Positions 30,905 to 46,831 of a DNA stretch of 64,000 nt are shown one piece after another (the first letter of the stretch is position 1; every line of letters starts with the position of its first letter). A program made the position numbers and the translations under genes. The DNA is from Butyricimonas sp. Marseille-P3923. Lineage in GTDB: Bacteria > Bacteroidota > Bacteroidia > Bacteroidales > Marinifilaceae. The stretch spans positions 744,001-808,000 of the forward strand of contig NZ_FXXL01000006.1 of the NCBI RefSeq assembly GCF_900184685.1. Direction: 5' to 3'. Below the pieces are notes generated by a model. The model ran no database searches. It had not been told where the DNA came from and was given only the letters and a program-made list of their open reading frames with translations.

Positions 30905-30934
30905 AAAACGAACACCTCCATAAAACAGGGTACA
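30905..30934 (-). promoter_or_regulatory. ECF-type promoter B (exporter operon)
   Basis: On the minus strand TGTACCC, 15 bp, TTCGTTTT. It is identical in both boxes and in spacing to the sites at 38824, 45299 and 46802. It is located between the terminator of the SusCD operon and the tolC-like start. Confidence 0.85.
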
Positions 30935-30953
30935 CGCTTCCCAAAATTTATCG

Positions 30954-30990
30954 CAAAAAAAGACGCCCGGAACTCTGCCCGGACGCCTCT
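30954..30990 (-). terminator. Intrinsic terminator of the SusCD operon
   Basis: Minus strand AGGCGTCCGG, 8-nt loop, CCGGGCGTCT, then seven T. Ten pairs, including two G-U. It lies about 25 bp after the lipoprotein stop at 31014 and directly upstream of ECF promoter B. Confidence 0.85.
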
Positions 30991-31013
30991 CTCACTAAAT
31001 GAACTGATCTGTC

Positions 31014-32039
31014 TTATTGCTCTTTGATAAATTGTGTCAAACCGCTTTTCTTCAATAAATTCAATAATGCCTCGTATCGCTTGATAATCATCGGAAATTC
31101 ACCATGCTCTGCCCGGATTTCGGCATCCGTCTTCGTGTAAATCATTTCCGTGAAATCAGAAAGGTCTTCCAACCAATTGGGAAAGTAAACATTATATCGA
31201 TCCACTTTTATGTATCTTAAAACACCATATCTTCTTGGATTCGTTGTAAAATCGTCATTATATAAAGGCTTTTCATCATACCGATACGAACTATTATTGT
31301 TTTCCGCCAATTCAAAAAGATCTTTTGTAGCCCACGCCTTTTTTTCTGGGAAATCCGGTGTTTCCTTCGTGATATCGAAATAAGCCTGTAATTCCTCTTC
31401 ATAGGTTACTTTAAAAAAATACTTCAACTCGTACATCGCCAATCTCCAACCATACATCCTTTTCTCCTCTTCGGTCATTTCCTCCACGGGTATAAAATTT
31501 TTCGCTTTCCCTCTCGACATGGTGTACCTAGAACTCAATGCCAACAAACCCAAATCCCGCAACAAAGAATCCTTATTAGCACCTTTCTGAAGAGTATCTA
31601 AAACCAAAAAACCATGTGGGCCGTACTTCCCTTTAAAATTAGGTCCATACTCTTTATTCAGATAAGGTTCAATCAAGTAATCCCGAAGAAGTTCCACCAT
31701 CATCTGAACTTTACTTTCATCCTGTTGCAATGTATATTTCGGTTTACTAAGTTGGTTAGAAAAACCATATCCGGGATAAAATATTTCATAATGTGTGTAC
31801 GGATTTCCTCCATGGTCATAACGTGTTTGCCGTCCGATCGTATCAGAATAGAAGATCGGAAAACCGGTTTCCACATAAACACTATATATCAACTGGTCCA
31901 ACTCGCCCGCATTCGGATTATATTCTATCTCATACCAATTTTCCTCAAGATCCGATACAGAACCAGCTTCATTATCGCCACAGGAATAAACAATCATTCC
32001 CAACAATAATCCACAAATTAACGCTTTTATTTTCATCAT
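31014..32039 (-). CDS. SusCD-associated lipoprotein of unknown function
   Basis: 341 residues. The signal MMKIKALICGLLLGMIVYSCGD places a lipid-modified Cys near residue 20. The mature part begins with an acidic stretch, then GELDQLIYSVYVETGFPIFYSD, a Tyr-rich segment with THYEIFYPGYGF, and helices including MMVELLRDYLIEPYLNKEYG. That opening (D..IY..Y....F.I.Y..., later P..Y, then a helix ending ..EPY) resembles the N-terminal half of the Bacteroidetes lipoproteins named putative zinc-binding metallopeptidase, which also sit after susD. No HExxH is present, so catalysis is not supported. It is the last gene of operon A. Confidence 0.6.
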   Translation of the reverse strand: MMKIKALICGLLLGMIVYSCGDNEAGSVSDLEENWYEIEYNPNAGELDQLIYSVYVETGFPIFYSDTIGRQTRYDHGGNPYTHYEIFYPGYGFSNQLSKPKYTLQQDESKVQMMVELLRDYLIEPYLNKEYGPNFKGKYGPHGFLVLDTLQKGANKDSLLRDLGLLALSSRYTMSRGKAKNFIPVEEMTEEEKRMYGWRLAMYELKYFFKVTYEEELQAYFDITKETPDFPEKKAWATKDLFELAENNNSSYRYDEKPLYNDDFTTNPRRYGVLRYIKVDRYNVYFPNWLEDLSDFTEMIYTKTDAEIRAEHGEFPMIIKRYEALLNLLKKSGLTQFIKEQ

Positions 32040-32049
32040 CTTTCCAGTT

Positions 32050-33627
32050 TTAATATAAGATACTATCTTCTCGGCTGTTTTGCTCTATGGTTCCGTCGCT
32101 TTGTTCTATTTCAGCAACAGGTATGGGCAATACCCATCCGCCATCCGGATATGCCGGAAGCAAGTAATAACCTTGCAATATTCCGGGAGTACCATTACCA
32201 CCATACGCATTACCGTACGTGTTGTGCTTGATACTCTTCGCATCTAAATAGTTTGGGCAAACCGCATAACGCCGCAAATCAAACCAACGCTGTCCTTCAA
32301 AACAGAATTCGCGGCGGCGTTCGTTCCGAATCAAATCAATCAATTCTTTCCCCGTGGCTGTAATCGGCTTCAAATTATTAACCCGATTCTCCATTAACTT
32401 TTTCAACGCTTCCCGTGCCAGTCCTTCTTGATTTGTCATAGCCAATGCCTCCGCCAGATTCAAATACACTTCAGACAGACGCAACGTGAAATTATCGGAA
32501 ACAAAGGAATACTCTTGCTCAACATCGAGAGCTTTTATTTTACGGGGAATATAAAAATCCACTCTCCCCTCTGATGCAGGCACGTTTTCTTCATGAAAAA
32601 GAGTAAATTTTTTCCGACAGTCATTCGCTTCCTCTTCAACAAGTCCATGCTCGTCAAACAAAGCCACTAATTCATCGGACACACGGAAAGCGGCAGAATT
32701 AGTTCTGCCTTTCACGAGTGGAAATACCCGGTTGTTACTATTACTCCCTTGCGTGAAAATAATCTCGGGTGAATTGGCATCGATCCAAGAGGTATCTTTC
32801 TCTGCGGCTTGAGTTAAATTTTTTAAACTATACTTGTTGCCGCTTATCACGGCATTACACAAATCCGGCACCAAATCCCATTTTCCCATGTAACAGTACA
32901 CGCGGCTTAAAAAAGTCTGAGCAGCCTCTAAACCGACACGTCGTATAGTTGTCGGTCGGTATGTTCCCAAATAATCAATAGCTAATTTCAAATCACTTAC
33001 AATCAACTGATAAACGCTATCCACGGAAGCGCGCGTATAGTCTTTGTCTTCCACGTAATGAGTCAACTTGATCGGAACTCCCGGATCTCGCAAAGCCGTG
33101 ATTTTGTCATAAGGCTTGGCATACAAATTAACCAAAAAATAATAATACGAGGCGCGCAGGAAATGACATTGTCCCCTTATCGCATTGCGGTCTTCATCCG
33201 TATCGTGCGTAAACTCCTCTACTTTATTCAAAATCACGTTCAATACGGCGATATGTTCGTACAAACGTCCCCAAGTCTTATCACTATAAAGCACTTTTGA
33301 AAAATTGCAAGGATCCTTTTCCCACGCATAATAACCGTATAATTTTGCCGATGGTTCGGTATCGACATATTCGCCTTTAACAAACTCTTCTACGTCGTCA
33401 TCCATTACATTCAACCAAGGGAAATACGCTCCCGTTTTACTATCGGGTTTTAGCTGATCCTTAAAACCAAGGACAGAATGTTTCATATAACCACTCCCAA
33501 CCAAAAGTTCATTCAAATCCTTACAAGAAGTGGCATAAGCATATTCAATCGATTCTTCTTCCAAAAAATCGGAACAACTTACTAATCCTAAAAGGAGTAT
33601 CCAGATTCCAATAAAATATCTTTTCAT
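32050..33627 (-). CDS. SusD/RagB-family nutrient-binding lipoprotein
   Basis: About 525 residues from MKRYFIGIWILLLGLVSCSD (lipobox with Cys near 19). The typical helical TPR core is seen: RGQCHFLRASYYYFLVNLYAKPYDK near residue 155 read as two blocks, GLEAAQTFLSRVYCYMGKW, and the C-terminal signature ELIDLIRNERRREFCFEGQRWFDLRRY shortened here to its key residues R-R-E-F-x-E-G-x-R-W-x-D-L-R-R. These are the defining features of RagB/SusD proteins, which cap the SusC channel at the cell surface and bind the nutrient. The start is set at the Met directly opening the signal, 13 bp after susC. The ligand cannot be deduced. Confidence 0.95.
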   Translation of the reverse strand: MKRYFIGIWILLLGLVSCSDFLEEESIEYAYATSCKDLNELLVGSGYMKHSVLGFKDQLKPDSKTGAYFPWLNVMDDDVEEFVKGEYVDTEPSAKLYGYYAWEKDPCNFSKVLYSDKTWGRLYEHIAVLNVILNKVEEFTHDTDEDRNAIRGQCHFLRASYYYFLVNLYAKPYDKITALRDPGVPIKLTHYVEDKDYTRASVDSVYQLIVSDLKLAIDYLGTYRPTTIRRVGLEAAQTFLSRVYCYMGKWDLVPDLCNAVISGNKYSLKNLTQAAEKDTSWIDANSPEIIFTQGSNSNNRVFPLVKGRTNSAAFRVSDELVALFDEHGLVEEEANDCRKKFTLFHEENVPASEGRVDFYIPRKIKALDVEQEYSFVSDNFTLRLSEVYLNLAEALAMTNQEGLAREALKKLMENRVNNLKPITATGKELIDLIRNERRREFCFEGQRWFDLRRYAVCPNYLDAKSIKHNTYGNAYGGNGTPGILQGYYLLPAYPDGGWVLPIPVAEIEQSDGTIEQNSREDSILY

Positions 33628-33639
33628 AAATCTCATGTT

Positions 33640-36600
33640 TTAAAATGATACGTTCACGCTCAATGAGTATGTTGGTTGCACCGCCACGTTAATCTTATCT
33701 GCAGAACCGGATTGCGAAGCAGGATCCTGTCCTTTCAACTCTTTCGCACTCCATGTAAACAAGTTTGTTCCTGACAAAGACACGTACAACGATTTACAAC
33801 GCAATTTTTTACAAACCTCGTCCGAGAACACGTAGCGCAAATTCAATCGTTGCAATTTCAAATAGTTCCCGCTAACGACTCGCACATCTGAAAAATTATA
33901 CATCTCCCAAATATTCTTAGCGAATGCATAGGGTTCTCCATTCCACCAAGGAGTAAGAGTTACACCATATGCAGTCTTGTCCATTATTCCCGGAATATTC
34001 GTGTACTTCTCATCCCCAGGTACTTGCCAACGATTGACCATCTCTTTGCGTAAATTCTGTATAGGCGATACCGCTAGAGACTTGGCATCCGGATTATACA
34101 ACTTCAACAACCGGATTTTAGAACCGATGCTATATGTCAAGTTGAAATCCAACACGAAACCTTTCCATGATAACATATTTGAAATACCTCCCTGCAAATA
34201 AGGCACGCGGCAACCGGAATAACGCATCACTTTCGTGAACACATCCGTTTTCGCCATGTCTACATACTCGGCGAAATATTCTTCGCTCGTGCGGGCAAAA
34301 GTCGGTCGTCCATCATCAGCACTCAACCCGGTAAATTCATAAGAATAGAAAGAATTCAAAGGTTTGCCAGATATATGGGCATTCCCGTTCAAGAAATCCA
34401 TATAGGTGTATTCATCATGCAATGGATCCTCTTTGTCTGTTTCGATCAATTTATTGATCAATTTATTAACCACACCTCCTAACTGCGGGTCAATTCGCCA
34501 CATAAATCCGTTCCGGTCGCCTCCCCCCATGGCGGTATTGATCGGGTTGATATTCACGCTCACTTCCACTCCTTGGTTCTCTACAGTACCCTGATTCACA
34601 GAATAAGAAGAAACACCATTCACTTGAGCTACTTTTTTAGTCAAGAAAGCATCCGTTGTCTTAGTATAAAAATAAGATAATGTCCCACTGAATTTATTAT
34701 TAAACAATGAGAAATGCAGTGAACTATTAATAGACATCTGTTTCTCCCAACTTAAATCCGGATTTGGAAAAGATTTGATTGTCGAACCGTATTCATTAAA
34801 CGCATTATCTAACTCGCCTTTCACGATGATTAATTCAGGAATTTGTGTCGCTTGAGTCGTTCCTCTATACCCGAAAGAAGCCGTCAACGCAAGATTATTC
34901 ACCCAATACACGCTTTTCAAAAGATCTTCATGCATATTCCAACGACCGGACACCGCCCATACCGGCAAAAATTTGTCTCTTGCCCGATCGCCAAACTGGT
35001 TGGAGTAATCTACTGCCATATCGGCATTAAATATATATCGATTTCTATAACTATAATTAAACGTACCAAGGTATCGAAGTCTATTCGACGTACGATCCTT
35101 AAATGTTCCCAATGCCGCTGAATTTGTCGTCAACCATTTCGTGTAGGTTTCATATTGAGTGTAATCAATCGTTCCGACTTGCAATCCTCTTTCCGGAACA
35201 TAACAACGAAAAGTCTTGTTCAACCCCGTGTTATGGGAAGAAGATAACTCGAATGTTGCCATAAGCGAAAACATATGGTCTCGCTCTTCGTCCAAAAAGA
35301 AATGGTAGTTCAACTGACTTCGCAAAGTATAATTTTCATTTTTGGTTGAATTTCTCCTCAATTCGCCCCCGTATGGCAAATTTGTCCCCTTCCGGAAAGA
35401 ACCAGTATCAAAATATCCATTTTTTCCCCCATCCGTCCAATCGTCATTAGCAAAACCCTTTTTACTGAGCGATTTTGCATAATGCGTCAAAGCTCCATGA
35501 TATACGTCATTATCAGTATTGGCTATGGAATAAGCAAATACTCCCGTTAATTTTAAATTATCTAAAATATTATAACTTGCATTAACTGAAAAAGAAAGTT
35601 GGTTTTTATCTATATGCTCGTAAGAATTATCTCGTTCATTCAATATATTAAACCATGACTCACCAGAACCTCCATTTAGCATTTTTTTCGGGTAAAAATA
35701 GAGAGAACCATCCTCGTTGTTAATTGGCACGGCACGACTAGTATTATACGCAAAATCCATCAATCCCACATCCGATGGCGTATGCTCCTGCTTTTGTACA
35801 TTTCCCTTCAAATTGAACGTGGCATTGAAACGATCGTAATTCAAAGTGACCTTCATACCTGCCGTGTAACGATCGCCGAACTCCTTTTGAAGCACTCCGT
35901 TTTGACGGTTATATCCCACCGAAGCGTAATATTTCGCAGTCTTGGATCCCCCAGAAAAAGACAATGTATGCGTGTGAGAAAAAGCATCCCGGCAAAGTTC
36001 ATCAAACCAATCCGTATCCAATGTTTCGTAATACTCCACTTGCCGCTTGAATTGCTCAAATGTCATTAAACCGTTACGATAATCTTCATAAGCAGCCTCG
36101 TAACCGATCCACGTGTTTTTATCGGCATATGTCATCTTCTTTTCTAGCAATTCCCGGGAATAAGCAACCCTTTCCGCTGAATTCATCACGTTCACCGTAC
36201 GATCTGAATAACGCGGGCGGCGAGTAAGCGTTCCTCCGAAACTGTAACGTACCGTGGGAGGTCCTTCCTTACCTTGTTTTGTCGTAATCACGATAACACC
36301 ATTGGCAGCCCGCGTACCGTACAAAGCCGTGGCGGAAGCATCCTTCAACACGTCTATTTGCTCAATATCTTCCGGATTCAAACCCGAAATGGCATTACCT
36401 AATAAATTCACAAAATCCAAATCATTCAACTGTGCCGGATCCACGTCTACCGGATCTTCCTGAATAATCCCATCGACCACCCACAATGGTTCCTGCGAAC
36501 CCAATACAGTAGAAGTCCCACGAATACGTAACCTTGGAGAAGCTCCTACTTGTCCTGAATTTTGCATGAATATCATACCCGGCACACGTCCTTCCAACAT

Positions 36601-37293
36601 CTGGTCTAGCGTGCTCATACCCGGGGTCATAATGTCATCCATTTTCAATGTCGTCACTGCACCGGTCAATTTCCGTTTATCAATTTGCTGATACCCTGCA
36701 TTGATCACCACCTCTTCCAGCTCTTGCGTGTCATCCTCCAAAATCACGGTCAAAAACTCCTGCCCTGCATATTTCACTTCTTTCATCTTTTTCCCGATAA
36801 ATGAGAAACACAATACCACGTCATCCCCGTCAGGAATCACCATTGTAAATTTTCCATGCACGTCGGTCGTGACCCCTCGGGTTGTTCCCTTCACAAGTAC
36901 CGTGACGCCCGGCAAAGTATCCCTAGGAGTTGTCCCCAACACGACTCCGGTCACCGTTCTCTTTTTCAACTGCTGTATAGGTGTCGTCCGTTTTAATATA
37001 ATCAAGTCTTTCTCTATCGTATACACTAGATTGGTTCCCGCCAACACAATATCCAAAATCTCACGGATCGTCTTATCCTGTACATTTATTGTTATTCCAA
37101 CCACTTGTTCGACATCTGCAGCAGAATAAATAAAAGAAAGTCCCGACTTTTGCTTGAGTATATCCACCACCTCGATCAATGATTTTTGCTTTACTTGTAA
37201 ATTCAACTTCATATCCTGTGCATTGGCAAACAACATACTCGCAGACAAAACCAAAAGCAACACGACTAATTTTATCGTTCTTATCGCTTTCAT
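33640..37293 (-). CDS. SusC/RagA-family TonB-dependent receptor with N-terminal STN domain
   Basis: About 1217 residues from MKAIRTIKLVVLLLVLSASM. Domains: signal peptide; STN domain (about 25-90: LNLQVKQKSLIEVVDILKQK, then ITINVQDKTIREILDIVLAG); a carboxypeptidase-regulatory-like domain (about 110-195: GVVLGTTPRDTLPGVTVLVKGTTRG begins it); TonB-box area; plug domain with GAVTTLKMDDI and DVLKDASATALYGTRAANGVIVITTK; and a 22-strand barrel ending LSVNVSF. The STN domain marks receptors that signal inward to a FecR-type anti-sigma, which agrees with the FecR/ECF pair 8 kb away. It imports the ligand bound by SusD in a TonB-driven way. Confidence 0.95.
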   Translation of the reverse strand: MKAIRTIKLVVLLLVLSASMLFANAQDMKLNLQVKQKSLIEVVDILKQKSGLSFIYSAADVEQVVGITINVQDKTIREILDIVLAGTNLVYTIEKDLIILKRTTPIQQLKKRTVTGVVLGTTPRDTLPGVTVLVKGTTRGVTTDVHGKFTMVIPDGDDVVLCFSFIGKKMKEVKYAGQEFLTVILEDDTQELEEVVINAGYQQIDKRKLTGAVTTLKMDDIMTPGMSTLDQMLEGRVPGMIFMQNSGQVGASPRLRIRGTSTVLGSQEPLWVVDGIIQEDPVDVDPAQLNDLDFVNLLGNAISGLNPEDIEQIDVLKDASATALYGTRAANGVIVITTKQGKEGPPTVRYSFGGTLTRRPRYSDRTVNVMNSAERVAYSRELLEKKMTYADKNTWIGYEAAYEDYRNGLMTFEQFKRQVEYYETLDTDWFDELCRDAFSHTHTLSFSGGSKTAKYYASVGYNRQNGVLQKEFGDRYTAGMKVTLNYDRFNATFNLKGNVQKQEHTPSDVGLMDFAYNTSRAVPINNEDGSLYFYPKKMLNGGSGESWFNILNERDNSYEHIDKNQLSFSVNASYNILDNLKLTGVFAYSIANTDNDVYHGALTHYAKSLSKKGFANDDWTDGGKNGYFDTGSFRKGTNLPYGGELRRNSTKNENYTLRSQLNYHFFLDEERDHMFSLMATFELSSSHNTGLNKTFRCYVPERGLQVGTIDYTQYETYTKWLTTNSAALGTFKDRTSNRLRYLGTFNYSYRNRYIFNADMAVDYSNQFGDRARDKFLPVWAVSGRWNMHEDLLKSVYWVNNLALTASFGYRGTTQATQIPELIIVKGELDNAFNEYGSTIKSFPNPDLSWEKQMSINSSLHFSLFNNKFSGTLSYFYTKTTDAFLTKKVAQVNGVSSYSVNQGTVENQGVEVSVNINPINTAMGGGDRNGFMWRIDPQLGGVVNKLINKLIETDKEDPLHDEYTYMDFLNGNAHISGKPLNSFYSYEFTGLSADDGRPTFARTSEEYFAEYVDMAKTDVFTKVMRYSGCRVPYLQGGISNMLSWKGFVLDFNLTYSIGSKIRLLKLYNPDAKSLAVSPIQNLRKEMVNRWQVPGDEKYTNIPGIMDKTAYGVTLTPWWNGEPYAFAKNIWEMYNFSDVRVVSGNYLKLQRLNLRYVFSDEVCKKLRCKSLYVSLSGTNLFTWSAKELKGQDPASQSGSADKINVAVQPTYSLSVNVSF

Positions 37294-37340
37294 AAAACAT
37301 ATATTTAACCTATTAAACATCTATCTTCTGTAACTCATTA

Positions 37341-38783
37341 TTATTCGCCCTCTTCTTCTTCATACCACACGCCATATTTTTCAGCAATATCGTGTATTTG
37401 CCGATAAGGAAGAGGATTCTTCGGGTCCGTAATCGCACGATGTCCTGTAACCGTGTATAAGTTTCGTAAAAACGGCACATCCAACGAACCTTTTATAGAA
37501 ATAGGCGCATGCGGGTAAGCCATCCCGTTCTTGCCTATAAAACGGAAACGCAACTCATGGGTCTCTGTCGAAGCGGAAGTAGACGCAAGCAACATATTTG
37601 TATGATTCGCCATAGGATAGACAAATTCAACCTCGTAAACATCCCCAGTTTTCTTAAACGACACGGCTTCTACGTATATTCCAAGAGCGTCAAAACCCGT
37701 ATCTTCATACTCATCCTGCTCCATCTCCTTGTCTCTTACTCCCGCCAAATTATAAGTCAACCATGGGTCATCAAACAACACTGCTCCCGCCAATTCAATA
37801 CCAGCAGGAACTGTGGTGAATTTACACAACACTTTCAATGTATCCTCCGCCACGATAGAACCTGAACCTGCCTTGGATCTTATATCTACTTTCTCGATAT
37901 TAACCTCAAATGGCTCATAAGAATAATTATCATTAAATAACTGTGTACCTGCTATATAGCGCACATCCCACAAGGGAACTCTAATTTTATCTGGCGTCCC
38001 GGCTTTGAATGAATTAGTGCTACCTCCGGTCCCGGAATAGCGAATGCAATTATACTTAGGCTGAGATTTCGCGCTACTACTCAAACGTTCATAAGCACCC
38101 ATTATACTCATAAAATCAGATTCAAAACCGGTTATTCCTTGTGTTACAAAACAAGAATGAGCAAAAGTTTTTAACACATACCCCAAATCATTCAAAAAAG
38201 CTGCCATGGCGCGTGCAGATTTGATATAGTTTGGTTTCCATCTCGTGTTGTCTACCCCACAAAACGCCATACCTTCTTTCACACTTGGGTAATAGTGCTG
38301 AATAAAAGCCCCTTCGTATTCCGGCATCCATACCAGATAATGGTCGCTTTGCTTTGCGTCCGGATTTTGTTTGAAATAATCCAACACCTCTTGTGCCATC
38401 GTTGCAATATCCTCTTTTTGCATATCTAAATAACTTTTGGTACTTTTGATGTAATGGATTTTAATAAACTCTGGGTTAGCGTCATTCAATTCTAGTCCAA
38501 ATTTTTTATCCACCCGGTAACGCATAAAATTCTCATGGAAATAATTCTGTATATGCAGCGTCATCCCTGACAAACGATAATGCCAATTCTCTATTTCCAA
38601 AATATCGGACGGTACATAATACACTACATTCAAATTGTGCATCTGTTCAGGCGTATAGGTCTCTCCGGGAGGAACAATCTCTTCCTCCTTTTCCGCATCA
38701 GCTTCCCTATACGTTTTTGTACAAGATGTAATAAAAATGGATAAAAGTATCCATAATAAAAATCCTACATTTTTTTTCATCAT
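37341..38783 (-). CDS. Lipoprotein with zincin-like layout but altered zinc motif, first gene of the SusCD operon
   Basis: 480 residues; lipobox in LLSIFITSCTKT. Family not firmly recognised. The middle reads like a metallopeptidase: an exposed-strand segment ending EGMAFCGVDN, a helix MAAFLNDLGYVLKTFAHSCFVTQG, and then FESDFMSIMGAYERLS, which is similar to the Met-turn region (DxMSxM..Y) of metzincin-like lipoproteins. The position where HExxH would lie reads HSCFV, so it lacks the Glu base and one His. The C-terminal ~200 residues look like beta-sandwich modules. I infer a degenerate peptidase that may bind a peptide. It is 47 bp upstream of the susC start chosen here, and 41 bp downstream of ECF promoter A. 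Confidence 0.6.
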   Translation of the reverse strand: MMKKNVGFLLWILLSIFITSCTKTYREADAEKEEEIVPPGETYTPEQMHNLNVVYYVPSDILEIENWHYRLSGMTLHIQNYFHENFMRYRVDKKFGLELNDANPEFIKIHYIKSTKSYLDMQKEDIATMAQEVLDYFKQNPDAKQSDHYLVWMPEYEGAFIQHYYPSVKEGMAFCGVDNTRWKPNYIKSARAMAAFLNDLGYVLKTFAHSCFVTQGITGFESDFMSIMGAYERLSSSAKSQPKYNCIRYSGTGGSTNSFKAGTPDKIRVPLWDVRYIAGTQLFNDNYSYEPFEVNIEKVDIRSKAGSGSIVAEDTLKVLCKFTTVPAGIELAGAVLFDDPWLTYNLAGVRDKEMEQDEYEDTGFDALGIYVEAVSFKKTGDVYEVEFVYPMANHTNMLLASTSASTETHELRFRFIGKNGMAYPHAPISIKGSLDVPFLRNLYTVTGHRAITDPKNPLPYRQIHDIAEKYGVWYEEEEGE

Positions 38784-38823
38784 GCTATTGATTTTAGATT
38801 ACCACATTATTTCATTTTTCTTA

Positions 38824-38853
38824 AAAACGAATAACTAGTAAAAATTGGGTACA
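38824..38853 (-). promoter_or_regulatory. ECF-type promoter A (SusCD operon)
   Basis: Minus strand TGTACCC, 15 bp, TTCGTTTT, with the last base of the -10 box 41 bp upstream of the lipoprotein start at 38783. It belongs to the set of four identical sites. AT-rich sequence upstream could help polymerase binding. Confidence 0.85.
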
Positions 38854-39145: not shown

Positions 39146-39175
39146 AAAAGCGTCCGGGAAATCCCGAACGCTTTT
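39146..39175 (-). terminator. Terminator after the S9 peptidase gene
   Basis: AAAAGCGTCCGGGA pairs with TCCCGAACGCTTTT (13 of 14 pairs, 2-nt loop), about 30 bp after the peptidase stop. In minus orientation the stem closes with four T. It ends operon C. The region between it and the operon A start (38784-39145) has no other gene; it holds promoter A and AT-rich DNA. Confidence 0.8.
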
Positions 39176-39204
39176 AAAAATACACAGATACTATTTAAAC
39201 AAAA

Positions 39205-41589
39205 CTAATTACTTCCTAAACGCATGTATTCGTCGATCTCTGTAAATTGATCCGTGGAATAATCGCCTAATAGATGCTTCGCGAAATGGAACCATATTTT
39301 TCGTTTGAAAAAATCCAAAGACACTCCCCGATAACCGTGATTTTGACCGGGTAAAATTAGCATATCGAAATTCTTACCGGCCTTGATTAACGCATCCGCC
39401 ATTCGGAAAGTGTTGGCAGGATGCACATTATTGTCAGCATCCCCGGCCACGAGCAATAAATGCCCTTTCAGGTTCTTTGCCAACTCGATATTGGTCGGGA
39501 TATTGGGTTTCTCGAATTTTACATTTTCAATCGTACTCTTCGTGGAATCTTTCACATCCTCCGGGGCTTTTGCTTTTTTCTTGGTCACAGGCTTGGTAGC
39601 TCTTGCCTCTTTTACCCCGTGGTGTGTTTCTCCCCACCAAATGTTATAGATATTATTATCATGATTCCCGGCAGAAGATACAGCTGCCGTGTAGAAATCC
39701 GGATAGGTACAGATTGCCGCCGTGGACATAAAGCCTCCCCCGGAATGACCGAATATTCCTACCCTTGACTTATCAATAAACGGGTAACGATCTGCCAGTT
39801 GTTCTATCCCGTACTTGTCATCAGCCAACGGGTAATCCCGTAGGTTGCCGTATCCATAGGTGTGGTACCATCTGTCACGCAAAGGGCTTCCTCCCCGGTG
39901 TCCGAACGTGACCACGATAAAACCCACTTGCGCCAAAGCCGCATTATTAAATCCCGTTGAAACGCTAAATTCCAAAGGAACTCCTTCAGTTTGCGGTCCC
40001 GGATACACGTAAGATATGATAGGGTACGTCTTCGTGGAATCGAAATCCGCCGGTTTCCACATGTAACCGAATAGGTCCGTTGAACCGTCTGCCGCTTTCA
40101 CGGAGAAAGGTTCAGGCATACGCCAACCCGTTTCGTAAAGCCGGGACAAATCGGGAGATGCCAGTTCTACAACAACTTTCCCGTCCGTGTTTCTTATCAC
40201 GCTCCGAGGTTCCAAATCAGCACGGGAATAATTATCCACGAAATATTTCCCGCCAAATAAAAAGTTCGTTTTGTGCGTTGCCTGTTCCGGTGTCAATATT
40301 TTCACCCCTCCTTTCCCGTCAAAACGAACTTTATTCAAGCGAGCATAATAAGGACTCACACCCTCTTTGTCTTGCCCGTAAGCCTCGAAATAAATGGTTT
40401 GTCCCGTGGTATCTATCCGAACAATTTTCCCGGATGTCCAACCACCGGAAGTAACAACATTCTTCAGGTTTCCCTCTCCGTCATACCGATACCAATGCCC
40501 GTGCCCCGTGCGTTCCGACCACCAAAGAATTTCTTCCCCGTCTTTCAATACGTGGAATTTAAATAGCTGATCATTAAAATAAGGTTCACATACTTCATTA
40601 ATCAACACTTTCACTTCTCCCGTTTCCGGGATTACCCGACACAACTCCATCTCATCACAAGTCCTTTTCTTGCGCGTGAAATAAAGCCTTTTAGCGGGGC
40701 GTCCGACACTGTACACGGATAATTTTTGATCTTTCCATTTTTCTACATCTAATTTCACCTCTTTTTTAATGGAAATATCAAACACGTGTAATTCATTCTG
40801 TTGCACGTGTTCATCCCCCGGCATGGCAAATTTGTATTTCTGCAATGTCGGACGCCCCGTGCCTAAAGTATTTACCAAGTAAAGCTCCTCCATTTTTCTT
40901 TTGTCCTCACGCTCCGCGTAAAAGAATCTTGAATCACCGAACCAAGTAATATCCGGAATCACCTTTTTCGTGGAATCCGCCGTCTTGGGTGCGTAAGAAT
41001 AACCTGTACGCCCGTCCGTTGTCAATTGTGTTTCCACGGAATCTTTCAGCGAAAATAAATACAGATTATGATTCTTGGCATATACCGTGTAATTGCTATC
41101 CGGGGAAAGTTTACCGTCGTATTTTATCGTCTTAGCCGGCTTCACCGGTGTTTTCGGATTTTTCTTTGTCGTGTCGGAAATCACTCGTTCCAAAGCGTTC
41201 GTCCGAAGATCGTATTTAAATCTTACTCCCTCTGAAGTAAATTGCAAAACCTTCCCTTTCTCTTCCAAAGAAAAACCCGATAATTTAATATCCTTGTAAT
41301 TAACAGGTTTGTGCGTCACCCGGCTAATCTCACCCGCTAACTCTTTGCGGTTGAACAATTCACGATTCAACCCGGCTTTAGGGTCCACGAAATAATAACG
41401 TATCCCGTCTTTCGTTTCATATTTATACCAGAATTTATCCGTCCCCTTCAAAACATTAGGTAACACACTTGTAGAACCGACCAGAGATTCTAAATTCAAA
41501 AAACGCTCCGCTTGTTTATAATTCGCCTTTTGCCCTACCCCGGAAAGGGCGAATAAACAAGGTAATATCCATAAAAAATACCTTACCAT
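39205..41589 (-). CDS. S9 family prolyl oligopeptidase / dipeptidyl peptidase IV-like
   Basis: 794 residues with signal peptide (MVRYFLWILPCLFALSGVG). The N-terminal ~500 residues are the DPP IV-type beta-propeller (YDGKLSPDSNYTVYAKNHNL, ITWFGDSRFFYAERED). The alpha/beta hydrolase domain has the nucleophile GIFGHSGGGFMST near residue 615, the acid in VAGDADNNVHPANT, and the base His in LPGQNHGYRG. All three catalytic residues are therefore present. A Lys-rich insertion of about 40 residues (ATKPVTKKKAKAPEDVKDST) separates the nucleophile region from the Asp and is unusual for the family. It should release dipeptides or cut near proline in the periplasm. It is the last gene of operon C, 5 bp after a thioredoxin gene. 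Confidence 0.93.
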   Translation of the reverse strand: MVRYFLWILPCLFALSGVGQKANYKQAERFLNLESLVGSTSVLPNVLKGTDKFWYKYETKDGIRYYFVDPKAGLNRELFNRKELAGEISRVTHKPVNYKDIKLSGFSLEEKGKVLQFTSEGVRFKYDLRTNALERVISDTTKKNPKTPVKPAKTIKYDGKLSPDSNYTVYAKNHNLYLFSLKDSVETQLTTDGRTGYSYAPKTADSTKKVIPDITWFGDSRFFYAEREDKRKMEELYLVNTLGTGRPTLQKYKFAMPGDEHVQQNELHVFDISIKKEVKLDVEKWKDQKLSVYSVGRPAKRLYFTRKKRTCDEMELCRVIPETGEVKVLINEVCEPYFNDQLFKFHVLKDGEEILWWSERTGHGHWYRYDGEGNLKNVVTSGGWTSGKIVRIDTTGQTIYFEAYGQDKEGVSPYYARLNKVRFDGKGGVKILTPEQATHKTNFLFGGKYFVDNYSRADLEPRSVIRNTDGKVVVELASPDLSRLYETGWRMPEPFSVKAADGSTDLFGYMWKPADFDSTKTYPIISYVYPGPQTEGVPLEFSVSTGFNNAALAQVGFIVVTFGHRGGSPLRDRWYHTYGYGNLRDYPLADDKYGIEQLADRYPFIDKSRVGIFGHSGGGFMSTAAICTYPDFYTAAVSSAGNHDNNIYNIWWGETHHGVKEARATKPVTKKKAKAPEDVKDSTKSTIENVKFEKPNIPTNIELAKNLKGHLLLVAGDADNNVHPANTFRMADALIKAGKNFDMLILPGQNHGYRGVSLDFFKRKIWFHFAKHLLGDYSTDQFTEIDEYMRLGSN

Positions 41590-41594
41590 TATCT

Positions 41595-42551
41595 TTATTT
41601 CTTCTTGTACTCCTTGATTATTTCTTCAATTATTTCCGCCGTCAATTCATGTCCTTTCAGAAGAGGGTAGCCTTCCCAACGTACGATGCCTTCCGGATCA
41701 ACCAGAATAGCATGAGGGACAGCCGTTATCCCCAAGGCTTTATGCAATACTTTCTTGGTATCGATAGCACTGTAATACTCGATCACAGGCTCTTTCATCG
41801 CTCTCACTTGTTCTTCTTTCTGACCGCACATCCCAATGACCACCAAATCTTTTTTAAATTTCTTACTGAACTCATTTAAATCCGGAATCCCTTTCCGACA
41901 AGGAGCACAAGAAGGTCCCCAAAAATCAATCAACAAGAATTTACCTTTCATTTTCGGCTCTTTGGTCAACCATTTTTCAACCACTAATTCGGGAGCTTTT
42001 TGATTCAAGAAAGATTTTGCCCACATCTTTTTTTCTACCTTATCCTCATTCCCGTATTTCTTCATAATGTCTTCAATCACCTCCGCCGTCAACTTAACCC
42101 CTCCCAACGGATAACCTTCCCAACGTACTATACCTTGAGGATCTATCAGTATCACGTGCGGAATCCCTGTAATTTCCAATTCTTTACTCATTCTCTTTTC
42201 CGTATCCACCGCACTATAATAATCAATAACAGGTTCTTTCATGGCTTTCACTTTCTCCGCTTTCTCGTAAGAAATCCCGATCACCACCAACTTATCTTTA
42301 AACCGCTCACTGAACTCGTTCAAATGAGATATCGCTTTTTTACACGGGCCACACGTCGTTGCCCAAAAATCAATCAAAACAAATTTTCCTTTCGTATCCG
42401 GTCGATCCGTAATCCATTCTTCGACAACTAATTCCGGAGCCTTTTGATTGATAATCGATTTGGCATACAACCAAACTTTGTCTTGTTTTTGTTGTGAAAA
42501 AACAGGAAAAACAGACCACACGGCTATAAATAATAATACAACTCTTTTCAT
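41595..42551 (-). CDS. Tandem thioredoxin-domain protein (TlpA/ResA-like), two domains
   Basis: 318 residues with signal peptide (MKRVVLLFIAVWSVFPVFS). Two homologous TlpA-like domains: 25-~165 with FWATTCGPCKKAI, and ~175-318 with FWGPSCAPCRKGI. Both keep CxPC and the late cis-Pro strand (TGIPHVILIDPQGIVRWEGYP; TAVPHAILVDPEGIVRWEGYP, each quoted as its core I/VP-H-x-I-L-x-D-P). The second domain is very close to the first domain of the protein at 44055, which points to recent duplication. It is periplasmic, probably reducing or isomerising disulfides. It lies 10 bp after the 42562 gene and 5 bp before the S9 peptidase gene. Confidence 0.92.
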   Translation of the reverse strand: MKRVVLLFIAVWSVFPVFSQQKQDKVWLYAKSIINQKAPELVVEEWITDRPDTKGKFVLIDFWATTCGPCKKAISHLNEFSERFKDKLVVIGISYEKAEKVKAMKEPVIDYYSAVDTEKRMSKELEITGIPHVILIDPQGIVRWEGYPLGGVKLTAEVIEDIMKKYGNEDKVEKKMWAKSFLNQKAPELVVEKWLTKEPKMKGKFLLIDFWGPSCAPCRKGIPDLNEFSKKFKKDLVVIGMCGQKEEQVRAMKEPVIEYYSAIDTKKVLHKALGITAVPHAILVDPEGIVRWEGYPLLKGHELTAEIIEEIIKEYKKK

Positions 42552-42561
42552 ATATTCTTTT

Positions 42562-44001
42562 TTAATTCTTTAATTCATTTTCCAATACTTCCCGCATCTT
42601 TTCACGTCCCATAAAACCTCTGAAAGAATGTTTTATATTCCCTTCTCTATCCACGATTAAATAATGGGGCAACCCTCCCATCTTAAACTGCTCATCTATC
42701 AAATAGCGGTAAGTTTCATTCGTCACCCGGTAATGGTCGCCACTCATGTCCGGTATCATTTTCAACCAACGCTCTTCCGGTGAAGCCTTTGCCCCGGTAA
42801 TAAACAAAAACTTAACCCCTTTTTTCTCAAATTCTTGTTTCACTTCCTCCATTTCATTCATCGCTTTCAAACAAGATTTACAGTACACGTACCAGAAATC
42901 AACAAATACCACTTCTCCCCGGTAGCCCGTCATGATACTGTCAAACACCTGTTCTTTCGGTACGTCCGGAACCTTTCCAATCTTATATCCCGGTTTTGCC
43001 AGATGTTCTGCCCATGCCTTATTTCCTTTCTCGTAAATATCGGTAAATAACTCTTTCACGTAGGGTGAAGCCGTTTGCATCAATGTCAGATGTTCCTTTT
43101 TTAAAGGCAGATCATTATTTACACGCAAATGGCAAACATGAGCTTTTTGTAAATCCAGTAAATAACCTCCTTTATTTTCCAAAAAAGCCTGCAACTGTTC
43201 TTCCTTTCTAAAGTACGATAACATCTTGTTAATCGAATGCTCGGGCAGAAGCATCAAATCATAACCGGCTTCCAGAAAAATTGGCTGCAATATATTAAAG
43301 CAGGGATATTTTGTATAAGGCAGCTCTCTCGAATCTTTTGCTCCTTGATACGCCTTCTCAAAATTCGGATTCATCGAATAAATATCTTCCGCACAATCCA
43401 GCAACGCTTCCAATTGAGCATAGCGGAACCAACCTTCACCTTGTTTTTTCTTTTGCTTCGATGACTCTTTTAATCGACTATCATACAATTCTTTACAATA
43501 AAGAATGTATTCATTTTCCGTCATTCCTTTGATTTTTTCCAAATCTACCGGATAACTACGGTTACGCTCACCACGACAAAGCAAATATTGATTCAATTCC
43601 GAATAATCCCCTTCAAATTCTCCCCTTGTTTCTTTTGTATTCACGTAAAGCCTTGCATTCTCCCCCGGATTCAGGACAATCTCTAATTCCCGATCCATAC
43701 ACGCTAAAGAAAGATTCAACAACAAAGAACCGTGTTGCTCGAATTCTATCAGAGTTTTCCCGTTTTCATCCAGTGCAAATTCTTGTTTACCGGGCAGAAA
43801 TCCACCCCATGACAAATATCCTTCTTTCTTCATCCCGGGTTCATAACCCTGCACTTGAACTTCTAAACAAGTCCGGGCACTTTTCAATACCGGGGATTGC
43901 CATTCCCGAACTTTCATTTTTTCAGTCTTCTGCGCGTATCCGCTTCCCAAAAGACACAATATCGCTACAACGACAAGAATAACTTTACGTTTCATTTTCA
44001 T
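42562..44001 (-). CDS. Thioredoxin-like (TlpA-type) protein with long N-terminal helical domain
   Basis: About 480 residues from MKMKRKVILVVVAILCLLGS (signal peptide). The longer frame starting at 44040 is rejected because it translates straight through a terminator hairpin. Residues ~30-125 are a beta domain (DUF4369-like in feel: EGYLSWGGFLPGKQEFALDE), ~130-340 are helical, and ~345-480 are a thioredoxin fold with the redox site FWYVYCKSCLKAM and a cis-Pro strand GGLPHYLIVDREGNIKHSFRG. Such N-terminal domain plus TlpA proteins are frequent in Bacteroidetes SusCD neighbourhoods. Preceded by a 10-bp-class hairpin with T7, so its expression relative to the first gene is probably reduced. Confidence 0.88.
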   Translation of the reverse strand: MKMKRKVILVVVAILCLLGSGYAQKTEKMKVREWQSPVLKSARTCLEVQVQGYEPGMKKEGYLSWGGFLPGKQEFALDENGKTLIEFEQHGSLLLNLSLACMDRELEIVLNPGENARLYVNTKETRGEFEGDYSELNQYLLCRGERNRSYPVDLEKIKGMTENEYILYCKELYDSRLKESSKQKKKQGEGWFRYAQLEALLDCAEDIYSMNPNFEKAYQGAKDSRELPYTKYPCFNILQPIFLEAGYDLMLLPEHSINKMLSYFRKEEQLQAFLENKGGYLLDLQKAHVCHLRVNNDLPLKKEHLTLMQTASPYVKELFTDIYEKGNKAWAEHLAKPGYKIGKVPDVPKEQVFDSIMTGYRGEVVFVDFWYVYCKSCLKAMNEMEEVKQEFEKKGVKFLFITGAKASPEERWLKMIPDMSGDHYRVTNETYRYLIDEQFKMGGLPHYLIVDREGNIKHSFRGFMGREKMREVLENELKN

Positions 44002-44007
44002 GCGATT

Positions 44008-44043
44008 AAAAAAAGGTTGTCCAAAAATTATCTCGGACAACCT
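44008..44043 (-). terminator. Intercistronic terminator/attenuator inside operon C
   Basis: Minus strand AGGTTGTCC (44043-44035), 12-nt loop, GGACAACCT, then seven T. The 9-bp stem is perfect. It sits between the first thioredoxin gene and the next, 11 bp after the former's stop codon. No second promoter of the ECF type is seen after it, so read-through is probably needed for the three following genes. Confidence 0.85.
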
Positions 44044-44054
44044 CCAAAAAACAG

Positions 44055-45209
44055 CTACTTGTACTTACTAATAATTTCTTTGATTTTTGCAGTTGTCAAA
44101 TCTATGCAAAGACCTTCCCAACGGACAATCCCTTTCGGATCAATCAATTGGACGTATGACAACACGTGCAAATCCATAGTCTTCCATATTTCCCCTTGCG
44201 GGTCACTTGCCAAATTGTACTCGATTTTAGGCTCGATTTCCAGTAATCGCTTTACGCCATCTTTGGCACAACCAATCACCACTAAATCATCGGCAAATTC
44301 CTTACTCCATTTGTTTAACTTCGGGATTGCTTTCCGGCAGGGGCCACAGTGGAAACTGAAGAAATCCCGCAAAACAAACTTGCCTTTCGTTTTCGGTTCT
44401 TTCGGGTACCATTCCTTTATATTCCAATCCGGTACTTTTTCTCCTAAAAACGGTTTTGCCATATTCCGGTCAACCCCTCCATTCTCGTAATCATATTTTT
44501 TTAACAACCCTTCAATTACCTCGGCTGTTAATTCATATCCTGATAATACCGGATTACCTTCCCAGCGAACGATTCCCCGAGTATCCAAAAGCACTGCATG
44601 CGGGTAACCTTTCACTTCATATTTACCGATATATTCCTTTTTCGTATCGATAGCACTATAATACTCGATAACAGGATCTTTCATCCCCCGTACAGATTCT
44701 TCCTTGTTTGGAGCCACACCAATCACCACTAATTTATCTTTAAACTGCTTACTGAATTTATTCAAATCAGGAATACTCTTCCGACAAGGTCCGCAAGAAG
44801 GCCCCCAGAAATCAATCAACACAAATTTACCTTCCGTGTTCGGTACATCCGTCAACCATTTCTCAACTTTCAATTCCGGTGCTTGACGATTCAAATAAGA
44901 TTTTGCATGCAAAGTTTTATCACCATTACTCTCCATTAATCGTCCCTGAACTTGATTCGAGGTCGTTACTGTCCCCTTTTTTTGTTGGGTATCGGCTGAC
45001 TTATTCTTAACCTGCACGTTTCCATTACCCAACATCTTGAATAAATTCTGCAAATCCTCCGCACTCTTGACCTCCATTTTAATAGTCTTGCGAACGGTAC
45101 CGTCACTTGTGACACTATCCTTCACTTCCGTTTTTGTTTCCTGTGCCTGACCGTTATAAAACATACCTGATAACGCGAACACTGCTAGAAAAATCTTCGT
45201 TCTTTTCAT
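44055..45209 (-). CDS. Tandem thioredoxin-domain protein (TlpA/ResA-like), first gene of operon C
   Basis: 384 residues. Signal peptide (MKRTKIFLAVFALSGMFYNGQA), then an ~80-residue low-complexity linker rich in Lys, Thr and Gln, and two TlpA-like domains: ~105-245 with FWGPSCGPCRKSI and ~250-384 with FFSFHCGPCRKAI. The first is nearly identical in wording to domain 2 of the 41595 protein (PDLNKFSKQFKDKLVVIG; DPVIEYYSAIDTKKEY). The second is more diverged. The linker is a possible spacer to the membrane. A terminator follows it, so it is likely the most abundant product of operon C. Confidence 0.92.
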   Translation of the reverse strand: MKRTKIFLAVFALSGMFYNGQAQETKTEVKDSVTSDGTVRKTIKMEVKSAEDLQNLFKMLGNGNVQVKNKSADTQQKKGTVTTSNQVQGRLMESNGDKTLHAKSYLNRQAPELKVEKWLTDVPNTEGKFVLIDFWGPSCGPCRKSIPDLNKFSKQFKDKLVVIGVAPNKEESVRGMKDPVIEYYSAIDTKKEYIGKYEVKGYPHAVLLDTRGIVRWEGNPVLSGYELTAEVIEGLLKKYDYENGGVDRNMAKPFLGEKVPDWNIKEWYPKEPKTKGKFVLRDFFSFHCGPCRKAIPKLNKWSKEFADDLVVIGCAKDGVKRLLEIEPKIEYNLASDPQGEIWKTMDLHVLSYVQLIDPKGIVRWEGLCIDLTTAKIKEIISKYK

Positions 45210-45298
45210 ACATCCCTTTTTTAAAATTTACCCGAACTTACAAGTAAAAACCCTTATTCTTATTCATTCGTTCCGGCGTTGAAATTACTGTTTAACGC

Positions 45299-45328
45299 AA
45301 AACGAATAAACTTTCAAAACAGGGTACA
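45299..45328 (-). promoter_or_regulatory. ECF-type promoter C (thioredoxin/S9 operon)
   Basis: Minus strand TGTACCC, 15 bp, TTCGTTTT; the -10 box ends 90 bp upstream of the start at 45209, the longest leader of the four. Otherwise it is identical to sites A, B and D. Confidence 0.85.
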
Positions 45329-45361
45329 AAGAAGATACATTTTAACAAATTCTTAATAAAA

Positions 45362-45556
45362 GAGGTGTGTTTTGACACACCTCCAGTCTATAATGTCCAT
45401 AAAGTCGAGCCTCCGGCTCCTAAATTCCATAAAGTCCACGATTCAATAACACAATGACATACAATATCATAAATCAAATCTCTCTATACATTTGACCTTA
45501 CAACATTATGGACCTTCAGACCTTATGGACGAGAGTGTGTGTTTTGACACACCCTC
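45362..45556. repeat. 195-bp composite palindromic repeat (right flank of the 25-kb block)
   Basis: Terminal hairpin GAGGTGTGT-TTTG-ACACACCTC (45362-45383), units AGTCTATAATGTCCATAAAGT, small hairpin GAGCC-TCC-GGCTC, another unit, spacer, units ACCTTACAACATTATGGACC and CTTATGGAC, and terminal hairpin GAGAGTGTGTG...ACACACCCTC-like (45531-45556). The same order and orientation as 20239-20416. It lies between the end of the anti-sigma gene and ECF promoter C. Confidence 0.8.
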
Positions 45557-45586
45557 TACTCTATACAGTCAATACTATTTTAATTC

Positions 45587-46744
45587 TTATTTCACGGTCG
45601 AAACATTAATCACGTTTCCTTTGATTTCGAATTTGACTTGTTCTGTCTTTTCGAACTTATCCAACAATTCATTCATATCACTATACCGGTCAATATTCGC
45701 GTAGAAGCGCAAGTTTTTGGCGTCTTCACTCGTGTAGAAGACATAAACATCGTACCATTTGCTCAATCGGGTCAGAATATCTTCCAAACGTTGGTTCCGG
45801 ATATTCAATTTTCCGTTTTTCCAATCCACGAATTCATCCACGTTTACCTCTCTCTGTACTATCGTGTTATTTTTCTTATCCAACACGGCTTGGTGACTCG
45901 GTTCCAGAATACAGGATTCATTGCCTGCCGATACTTTCACTTTACCTTTGACGAGAGTGGTTTCAACAAACTCTTCATCCTCGTAATCCCTGACGTTGAA
46001 TGATGTTCCCAATACTTCTATTTTCTGGTTTTTCATTTCCACGACAAACGGATGTCCCGGATCATGAGCCACGTCAAAATAGATTTCACCGGATGCCTTC
46101 ACCACTCGTTTATCTCCGGAGAATGTCACCGGGTATTCAATCTCCGAGAGAGCTCCCAAATACACCTTTGTCCCGTCCGAAAGTGTTATCCCGTATTCTC
46201 CCCCTCTCGGAGTCGTTACTTTGTTGAAAACTTCCTCTTGAATCAAAGTATCCTGTTTTTTCTCGTAACTCAATACAGAGCCTGTATTAACGATTTTAGC
46301 CGAAGCATCTTCCATCTCGTTGGAAAGATTTTCCAGTTCAACACATATTCCATTGGATAACTGCAAAATAGCTTTATTTCCTCCCGCTGGAATGGTTGCC
46401 ATTTGGGTAGGGGCAACAGTTTTCTCGTCACGCCCTAAAGTAAATACCAGAATGCCTATCAACAAACAAGCCGCAGCACCTGAAACAGACCAATAAAAAA
46501 GATTGCGCCTTTTTCCCGGTTTCTTTTTCTCCAGACGATTGGAAAACTTCTTCCAAGAAACATTTGCATCCTTATCGGTAATCTCCTTCACGAACCCGTT
46601 TTTCTGATAAAACCTTTCTATCTTGTGAAAATAATCTTTATTCTCCCTGTTTGCCGTGTACCATTCTCCGAAACGACTTTCTTCTTCCGGAGAAAGTCCC
46701 CCTTCTAATTTGCGTTCTATGATATCCCACTCTATCTGTTTCAT
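45587..46744 (-). CDS. FecR-family anti-sigma factor
   Basis: 385 residues. The cytoplasmic N-terminus (about 1-80) begins MKQIEWDIIERKLEGGLSPE, the usual sigma-binding region of Bacteroidetes FecR proteins. One membrane helix (LFYWSVSGAAACLLIGILVF) follows near 85-105. The periplasmic part has the FecR domain (VTTPRGGEYGITLSDGTKVYLGALSEIEYP is its signature region, here cited by T-P-x-G-G-x-Y and L-x-D-G-T-x-V-x-L) and a C-terminal DUF4974-type STN-like fold (LEDILTRLSKWYDVYVFYTS). It should hold the adjacent ECF factor inactive until the SusC receptor's STN domain signals ligand. It has its own ECF promoter. Confidence 0.95.
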   Translation of the reverse strand: MKQIEWDIIERKLEGGLSPEEESRFGEWYTANRENKDYFHKIERFYQKNGFVKEITDKDANVSWKKFSNRLEKKKPGKRRNLFYWSVSGAAACLLIGILVFTLGRDEKTVAPTQMATIPAGGNKAILQLSNGICVELENLSNEMEDASAKIVNTGSVLSYEKKQDTLIQEEVFNKVTTPRGGEYGITLSDGTKVYLGALSEIEYPVTFSGDKRVVKASGEIYFDVAHDPGHPFVVEMKNQKIEVLGTSFNVRDYEDEEFVETTLVKGKVKVSAGNESCILEPSHQAVLDKKNNTIVQREVNVDEFVDWKNGKLNIRNQRLEDILTRLSKWYDVYVFYTSEDAKNLRFYANIDRYSDMNELLDKFEKTEQVKFEIKGNVINVSTVK

Positions 46745-46801
46745 AATTCACCTCTTCTTAAATCTACATAAATTCAATTTTACATAGTTCTTCTGATACT
46801 G

Positions 46802-46831
46802 AAAACGAACTCATGTTTATTTCGGGGTACA
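46802..46831 (-). promoter_or_regulatory. ECF-type promoter D (anti-sigma gene)
   Basis: Minus strand TGTACCC, 15 bp, TTCGTTTT, with the -10 box 58 bp upstream of the anti-sigma start and a T-rich/A-rich tract just upstream. It lies in the gap between sigma and anti-sigma genes, so the anti-sigma gene can be induced separately: negative feedback. Confidence 0.85.

Follow-up and report, generated by a model that had tools for sequence, protein, structure and literature searches.

In the genome of Butyricimonas sp. Marseille-P3923, one of about 130 related sigma switches appears to mark its near and far target operons with the same short DNA signal. The signal was studied in a window of 64,000 nucleotides (C2:744001-808000 of this genome, G000; 5.30 Mb in 7 contigs), where TGTACCC, 15 free bases and TTCGTTTT occur without mismatch at four places, all on the minus strand (sites A to D, Table 1). 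We consider it very probable that these sites are the -35 and -10 elements of promoters read by the extracytoplasmic function (ECF) sigma factor encoded at 46861-47418, and that they mark out a regulon in which the sigma factor is held by FecR and triggered through a receptor. The proposal is built on the sites as observed, their conservation, their co-occurrence with the sigma gene and the covariation of promoter bases with sigma residues. ECF sigma factors number in the dozens in gut Bacteroidales, and their promoters are known in few cases. For one regulon we propose the promoter down to the single base, together with its trans targets, and the comparison also yields a residue-to-base rule that covers many paralogs.

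The motif was searched in two forms, the full one with 15 fixed bases (TGTACCC-N15-TTCGTTTT) and a shorter one with the last two bases free (TGTACCC-N15-TTCGTT); expected counts come from a first-order Markov model, and the reversed pattern served as control. For the full motif, 0.0003 matches are expected in the window and 0.024 in 5.3 Mb, while 4 and 5 were observed. When up to three mismatches are allowed, the window holds 10 matches versus 2.89 expected, a number reached by none of 100 shuffles, and the other six listed matches each carry three mismatches. A preliminary description of this DNA had reported four identical minus-strand sites 38-90 bp before starts, not derived from a copied repeat, and a single sigma gene in the window. 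The motif and its N15 spacing recur exactly at all four places, and the measured distances to the downstream start (57, 89, 40 and 37 bases for sites A, B, C and D) correct the range slightly, to 37-89. Spacers and flanks do differ among the four sites, and a single one of the 133 sigma matches in the genome falls in the window, at the gene named above.

The -10 element carries CGT, as in ECF-type promoters. In the part of PMC8103513 drawn on here, the usual features of such promoters are CGT in the -10 and AAC in the -35 element; AAC is absent from the -35 element here, where the window motif has ACCC and related promoters have ACCC-like words.

Conservation of the sites and putative targets elsewhere

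Six Butyricimonas genomes were compared (G000 and G001-G005), and the sigma gene is carried by G000, G001, G002 and G004. Its orthologs are 86% (G002), 80% (G001) and 79% (G004) identical to it, and the next best match in the six genomes reaches 42%. The cluster is syntenic in all three sister genomes, with a varying number of thioredoxin genes; the exporter operon keeps its gene order in G002 and G004, and its Met-zincin gene was not found in the corresponding stretch of G001. Sites stand before FecR and before orfX in all four genomes and before TolC in all four as well (one with a mismatch), whereas the site before the thioredoxin operon is exact in three and has a two-mismatch form in G002. 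An additional site precedes SusC in G001, G002 (with one mismatch) and G004. G003 and G005 have neither the sigma gene nor the cluster sites.

The shorter motif tracks the sigma gene in number also: G000, G001, G002 and G004 have 9, 7, 4 and 5 exact matches, versus 1 in G003 and 0 in G005. In G000, 0.19 would be expected and the reversed control gives 0. Among 33 further genomes from outside the genus (39 in all), G022 and G036 have one match each; the reversed control gives 7 in the 39 genomes and none in the genus. Of the 25 matches in sigma-bearing genomes, 22 lie upstream of genes and point at them, 16 in the syntenic cluster and 6 elsewhere. The preliminary description had taken genome-wide abundance unrelated to starts as the sign that it was wrong; 8 of the 9 matches in G000 are upstream of genes. 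None of the five exact 15-base matches of this genome falls inside a reading frame of at least 150 aa, as opposed to 3 of 5 one-mismatch matches (one of them, before an S8 protease gene, in a frame on the other strand) and 17 of the 20 two-mismatch matches examined out of 21. The intragenic matches at C1:853283 of G000, 4264604 of G001, 2398068 of G003 and 2079360 of G004 were discounted as due to chance or to conservation of coding sequence. Those of G001, G003 and G004 fall in a single conserved stretch of a SusC gene, and G003 lacks such a sigma factor. In a few cases (orfX2 in L092, SusC in L103) the first mechanical start codon overlaps the end of the site, and a later start is taken as the real one.

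These comparisons bear on the idea that the sites are copies of a mobile or duplicated upstream sequence, perhaps without function. Shared flanks are indeed seen between the orfX site and the site before a 234-aa protein in G001. The window sites, however, differ in flanks and spacers, and their boxes are kept across four species while most of the surrounding sequence has diverged, so that we regard this explanation as extremely improbable.

Away from the cluster, the motif precedes genes at four other places in G000. The site at C1:1488943 stands before a gene for an S8 protease, as does one in G002; the best matches of this protease in G001 (51%) and G004 (48%) lie inside the cluster, behind site B. 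The site at C2:1255750 precedes a second orfX-SusC-SusD-orfY set, whose products are 36, 58, 50 and 31% identical to those of the window, and relatives of orfX were found in four of the six genomes, the four with the sigma gene. The site at C1:507542, 164 bases before its gene, and one at 5411230 of G001 precede related small lipoprotein-like genes, found in just these two of the six genomes (E 1e-5). The fourth place, C1:1069057, is taken up below. A weaker site (AGTACCC) lies at C1:71715, before a LolA-like/MacB operon.

Some further observations concern individual sister genomes. The two-mismatch site of the thioredoxin operon in G002 (L099:7858-7900) overlaps by eye an inverted repeat, AAAACGGGGT...ACCCCGTTTT, with an A/T run after it; a terminator and a -35 box would seem to have bases in common here. 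A one-mismatch site in G004 (L104:13908-13937) lies 3' of the exporter operon, before a 169-aa reading frame. In G001, L098:6972-9626 holds secreted-looking proteins of 234 and 164 aa, as pairs duplicated in tandem; the promoter that lies between them may be copied, given that its flanks resemble those of the orfX promoter of G001.

A predicted FecR promoter family and sigma residues

The genome of the window holds at least 125 FecR genes and 133 sigma matches. The FecR number is a lower bound, from 150 of 223 first-look candidates scored: at least 146 matches were obtained, of which 21 in frames above 1000 aa were taken as STN domains of receptors. Set against the 2 to 18 FecR_C matches of six genomes elsewhere in the family or order, the FecR/ECF sigma set of this genome is a large expansion; the other genomes of the genus have 84 to 142 sigma matches.

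To look for a common promoter, a two-block motif search seeded with CACC alone was run on the 150 bases before each of the 125 FecR genes. It converged on ....TcAccC.tTTt. followed, mostly 11 bases on, by GT.tTa, with a log-likelihood of 424 versus -98 to -153 in four independent shuffles. The trained model scores above 5 in 108 of the 125 upstream stretches, on which it was itself trained, and in 5, 9, 10, 10 and 13 sequences of five shuffles. AAAA stands 16 bases before ACCC in 32 of the 125. In the common register the window site reads T2 G3 T4 A5 C6 C7 C8 and the consensus T4 C5 A6 C7 C8 C9; the window motif is one variant of a predicted promoter common to FecR genes.

Directly upstream of 85 of the 125 FecR genes, a sigma end was found in the fetched stretch, and 72 pairs (score above 5, gap of 10 or 11) were used to compute the mutual information between promoter columns (numbered A2 to A7 in the -35 region) and sigma columns, 4896 tests in all. 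Residue 82 covaries with the base before GT (z 16.0), residue 164 with A3 (z 11.2), residue 161 with A2 (z 10.9), residue 85 with the second base before GT (z 10.6) and residue 160 with A4 (z 9.6); each value exceeds 8.4, the largest maximum among 150 permuted pairings. Residue 156 with A6 passes the 95% family-wise level. Going by general ECF structure, residues 154-164 are taken to form the recognition helix in region 4.2, with residue 82 placed in region 2.4. The counts are as follows: in the -35 element R164 goes with G in 19/22 pairs, L161 with A in 18/18, T160 with T in 43/43, N156 with A in 43/45 and K163 with C in 27/28; at the base before GT, D82 goes with C (15/16), N82 with T (26/30), K82 with G (8/8) and T82 with A (3/4); at the second base before GT, K85 goes with T (17/19) and R85 with G (26/41).

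When its own pair is left out of the counts, the window sigma factor is assigned T, G, T, A, C and C in the -35 element and the C of CGT, as seen in the four sites. Leave-one-out prediction over the 72 pairs was right more often than the majority base (second number of each bracket) at A3 (52 versus 29), A4 (68 versus 61), A5 (54 versus 50), A6 (62 versus 58), A7 (61 versus 54), the base before GT (58 versus 30) and the second base before it (54 versus 30); at A2 it was right in 48 of 72, where the majority baseline is an uninformative tie. Applied to 13 held-out sigma/FecR pairs, taken from five sister genomes, the rule gave the right base at 94 of 104 positions versus 56 by the majority base. 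Of these 13 sigma factors, 8 are at most 40% identical to any sigma factor of G000 in the comparison. Half of the ten misses come from one locus, L116 of G005, where the model register is by eye one base off. The three orthologs of the window sigma factor were excluded from this count; two of them (L107, L108) gave 7/8 right and L109, where the model missed the site, 3/8.

Outside the genus, six genomes of the family or order supplied 30 FecR loci; 24 of these have a co-oriented sigma gene, and of the 24, 7 have a promoter score above 5. In the 7 the rule got 41 of 56 bases right versus 30 by the majority base, which makes it weak at this distance; for 17 of the 24 loci the promoter model found none, and the grammar is thus not shown to hold there.

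With so many related sigma factors in one genome, another of the roughly 130 paralogs, or several of them, might read the sites, and the trans targets need not belong to the window sigma factor. The 133 sigma matches lend weight to this, as do the many paralogs that stand before promoters of one grammar and the distant sigma factor of G005 with a TGTACCC -35 box (L116, see below). In opposition to it, the window FecR gene is alone among the 125 in having the motif within two mismatches in its upstream 150 bases (the next best has three), and the helix AEGTVHTHIKR was seen once among the 108 fragments, out of the 133 sigma matches, in which the helix is readable. For two of the closest paralogs in G000 (38-40%), the nearest downstream FecR gene, 1-2 kb off and not adjoining, has a TGTCCCC promoter. 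Given also that the sites track the window sigma factor across genomes, we find reading by a paralog unlikely.

Still less probable, in our judgement, is a role of the sites as operators, bound by a repressor or an activator, instead of as promoters. Two conserved boxes at a fixed spacing would suit an operator too. The sites are, however, non-palindromic by eye, they keep one orientation at 37-89 bases before starts in the window, and in related promoters the -35 and -10 bases covary separately with sigma regions 4.2 and 2.4. The CGT of the -10 element is also that of other ECF promoters, as given in the part of PMC8103513 cited above.

Promoters read by the window sigma factor remain the reading that we favour, and the regulon proposed in the preliminary description is supported by the sites before orthologous operons in three sister genomes, by the co-occurrence with the sigma gene and by the sigma-to-promoter rule, with one miss. 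This miss is the first of several points that weigh against it: R85 predicts G two bases before GT, where the window site has T. Further, a single other sigma factor with G156 backs the C at A6, and residue 130, outside the helix, also exceeds the 95% family-wise level with A2. The residue-to-base assignments were chosen on data that include the window pair, which was left out of the counts alone; the permutations treat the pairs as exchangeable although they are related paralogs, with kinship uncorrected; and the held-out pairs are the loci nearest to the window sigma factor and not a random set. In a Mantel comparison, whole region-4 distance is not correlated with -35 core distance (r -0.05). 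About 25 of the 133 sigma matches have no readable helix, which leaves room for another reader, and a different sigma factor (L116 of G005) precedes a TGTACCC -35 box whose -10 partner differs. Among the matches in sigma-bearing genomes, 3 of 25 are intragenic and chance-like. Finally, the site at C1:1069057 lies 233 bases before an ABC/MacB/HlyD/TolC operon and within a mechanical 126-aa frame, and the permease searched from this operon is without a match at E 1e-40 in the five remaining genomes of the genus; for these reasons it is the putative target held least surely.

For nTTTT, the -10 element (equalled in 113 of 2000 permutations), the spacer and the bases that follow it, the same Mantel comparison with region-4 distance gave nothing; the sole signal comes from the four bases that precede the -35 core, A2 and A3 among them (z 3.5, 2/2000).

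Two loci of sister genomes were looked at by eye. The L116 sigma factor of G005, at most 37% like any sigma factor of G000 compared, has TTGTCTTA as its -10 element, and its residues G156 and N82 fit its promoter. G002 has a paralogous cluster at L249:7575-19983, with a sigma factor (30%), orfX (33%), thioredoxins, S9 (57%) and S8 (46%) proteases and SusC (58%). In it the sigma gene is followed directly by orfX, and the window FecR has no match in 20 kb at E 1e-6; the helix SVNTVKTALSR and the promoter TGTCACCC right before orfX fit the residue rule.

Predicted circuit and known systems

Binding, transcription and ligand control by the sigma system, as we infer them, would run as follows. A housekeeping-type promoter would drive the sigma gene, and the FecR anti-sigma factor would hold the sigma protein. 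Ligand binding by the STN-bearing SusC, and perhaps also by the SusC paralog encoded elsewhere in the genome, would make FecR let the sigma factor work, and RNA polymerase with this sigma factor would transcribe the FecR gene (a negative feedback), the thioredoxin/protease operon, orfX-SusCD-orfY, the exporter operon and several distant operons. Recognition would be base by base, with TGTACC matched by A154, G156, T160, H161, K163 and R164 in region 4.2 and the C of CGT by D82 in region 2.4.

The sigma gene's own upstream region agrees with this scheme. A box TATATTTG lies 64-82 bp before it in all four orthologs, with an exact TTTG box in the window only, and no -35-like word TGT-CC was found in the 160 bases before the gene in any of the four. 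This fits TAnnTTTG, the -7 box of the primary sigma factor according to the portion of PMC7366714 used here. Given that the sigma gene has a housekeeping-type -7 box and FecR the ECF site, the sigma factor is probably made all the time and the anti-sigma factor only when the sigma factor is free. The sigma gene is probably not autoregulated, since the site precedes the anti-sigma gene and not the sigma gene itself.

The regulon would comprise proteases (S9, Met-zincin, S8), thioredoxin-like proteins, a SusCD importer and an exporter. Our guess at its purpose, about which we have some doubt, is the scavenging of peptides or of proteins with disulfide bonds, together with export of either a product or a toxic compound. 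We lean towards a wider proposal, in which a near-digital promoter code would keep more than a hundred paralogous ECF sigma/FecR circuits apart. Some five residues in region 4.2 and two in region 2.4 would each set one base of the -35 or -10 box, and an operon could move and yet stay in its regulon as long as it kept the six to eight coding bases, which the S8 protease gene seems to have done. If true, such a code would let most targets of the paralogous sigma factors be predicted from sequence. The letters of the signal match the residues expected to read them, which offers a route to predicting control by many uncharacterised switches, and how so many paralogous switches avoid crosstalk becomes directly testable.

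An ECF sigma factor, a FecR anti-sigma factor and a TonB-dependent receptor with a signalling domain are shared with FecI/FecR/FecA of Escherichia coli. HasI/HasS of Serratia belongs to a haem system for which we know of no SusD-type partner. By sequence, the gene layout here agrees with HasI/HasS, a pair in which the sigma factor drives its own anti-sigma gene and not itself, going by the excerpted text of PMC9249621. From the same text, the ECF promoter of the E. coli system belongs to fecA, and transcription of fecIR there is without autoregulation; here, by contrast, an ECF site lies between the sigma and FecR genes and before several operons.

A promoter code linking -35 and -10 bases to residues of sigma4 and sigma2 was given by Todor et al. 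in 2020, as described in the consulted part of PMC8103513. Compared by that description only, our set differs in consisting of paralogs of one genus, in an ACCC-type -35 element in place of AAC, and in a base before GT that varies among C, T, G and A. SigW-1 of Bacteroides thetaiotaomicron is likewise an ECF sigma factor that acts in trans, on a distant polysaccharide utilization locus (PUL); the available portion of this 2025 study reports no significant motif for it, with TGTT noted near the -10 position (PMC12596196), whereas a clear motif with relatives in four species is found here. An ECF-type motif has been reported for EcfO of Bacteroides fragilis (cited in PMC7366714), and according to that 2020 B. 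thetaiotaomicron transcriptome paper no motif had been identified for any ECF sigma factor of B. thetaiotaomicron. SM6 promoters of Flavobacterium psychrophilum have a CGT box at -10, going by the relevant part of PMC9723704. The EcfO and SM6 motifs are likened to ours as Bacteroidetes ECF-type by description, not letter by letter. In the open literature searched, we found no description of a TGTACCC-N15 motif and no paper on Butyricimonas with a sigma factor and an anti-sigma factor.

Genes of the cluster

On the minus strand the order is sigma gene, site A, FecR, site B, thioredoxins/S9, site C, orfX-SusC-SusD-orfY, site D and exporter operon (Table 1), so that the sites front the gene sets to which the preliminary description had assigned them.

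Table 1. Predicted promoter sites and genes of the cluster, in window coordinates
Feature	Position	Strand	Evidence
Site A, predicted ECF promoter of FecR gene	46802..46831	-	Exact; same position in 4/4 sigma-bearing genomes
Site B, predicted ECF promoter of thioredoxin/S9 operon	45299..45328	-	Exact; exact in G001, G004; 2 mismatches in G002
Site C, predicted ECF promoter of orfX-susC-susD-orfY operon	38824..38853	-	Exact; 4/4 genomes
Site D, predicted ECF promoter of exporter operon	30905..30934	-	Exact; first 13 fixed bases exact in G001, G002; 1 mismatch in G004
Predicted housekeeping-type promoter of sigma gene (TTTG 47514-47517, TATATTTG 47488-47495)	47488..47517	-	Exact TTTG-N18-TATATTTG
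ECF sigma gene, 185 aa, TIGR02985, proposed reader of the sites	46861..47418	-	Pfam Sigma70_r2 and r4; TIGR02985 133.7 bits
FecR-type anti-sigma gene	45587..46744	-	Pfam FecR, FecR_C
Operon of three thioredoxin-like proteins and S9 dipeptidyl-peptidase-type protease	39205..45209	-	Pfam
orfX, lipoprotein-like by eye	37341..38783	-	No Pfam/NCBIfam family; relatives found in only the four sigma-bearing of six genomes
susC, TonB-dependent receptor with STN signalling domain	33640..37320	-	Pfam, NCBIfam; STN 7.8e-10
susD	32050..33636	-	Pfam
orfY, lipoprotein-like by eye	31014..32039	-	No Pfam/NCBIfam family
Exporter operon: TolC, HlyD, two ABC ATPases, two ABC-2 permeases, Met-zincin protease, thioredoxin-like protein	20457..30867	-	Pfam

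The sigma protein has regions 2 and 4 and exceeds the curated cut-off of TIGR02985 (Bacteroidetes ECF sigma factors), which stands at 126.4 bits. The adjoining FecR anti-sigma gene and the TonB-dependent SusC with its STN domain are what is expected of a FecI/FecR-type system. A PUL would combine SusCD with carbohydrate-active enzymes; SusCD is present here, and none of the 18 window proteins scanned against Pfam matched a glycoside hydrolase model. The two conserved proteins without a family match, orfX and orfY, have N-termini that resemble lipoprotein signals by eye, and the AlphaFold model of orfX is poor, with a mean pLDDT of 50.6.

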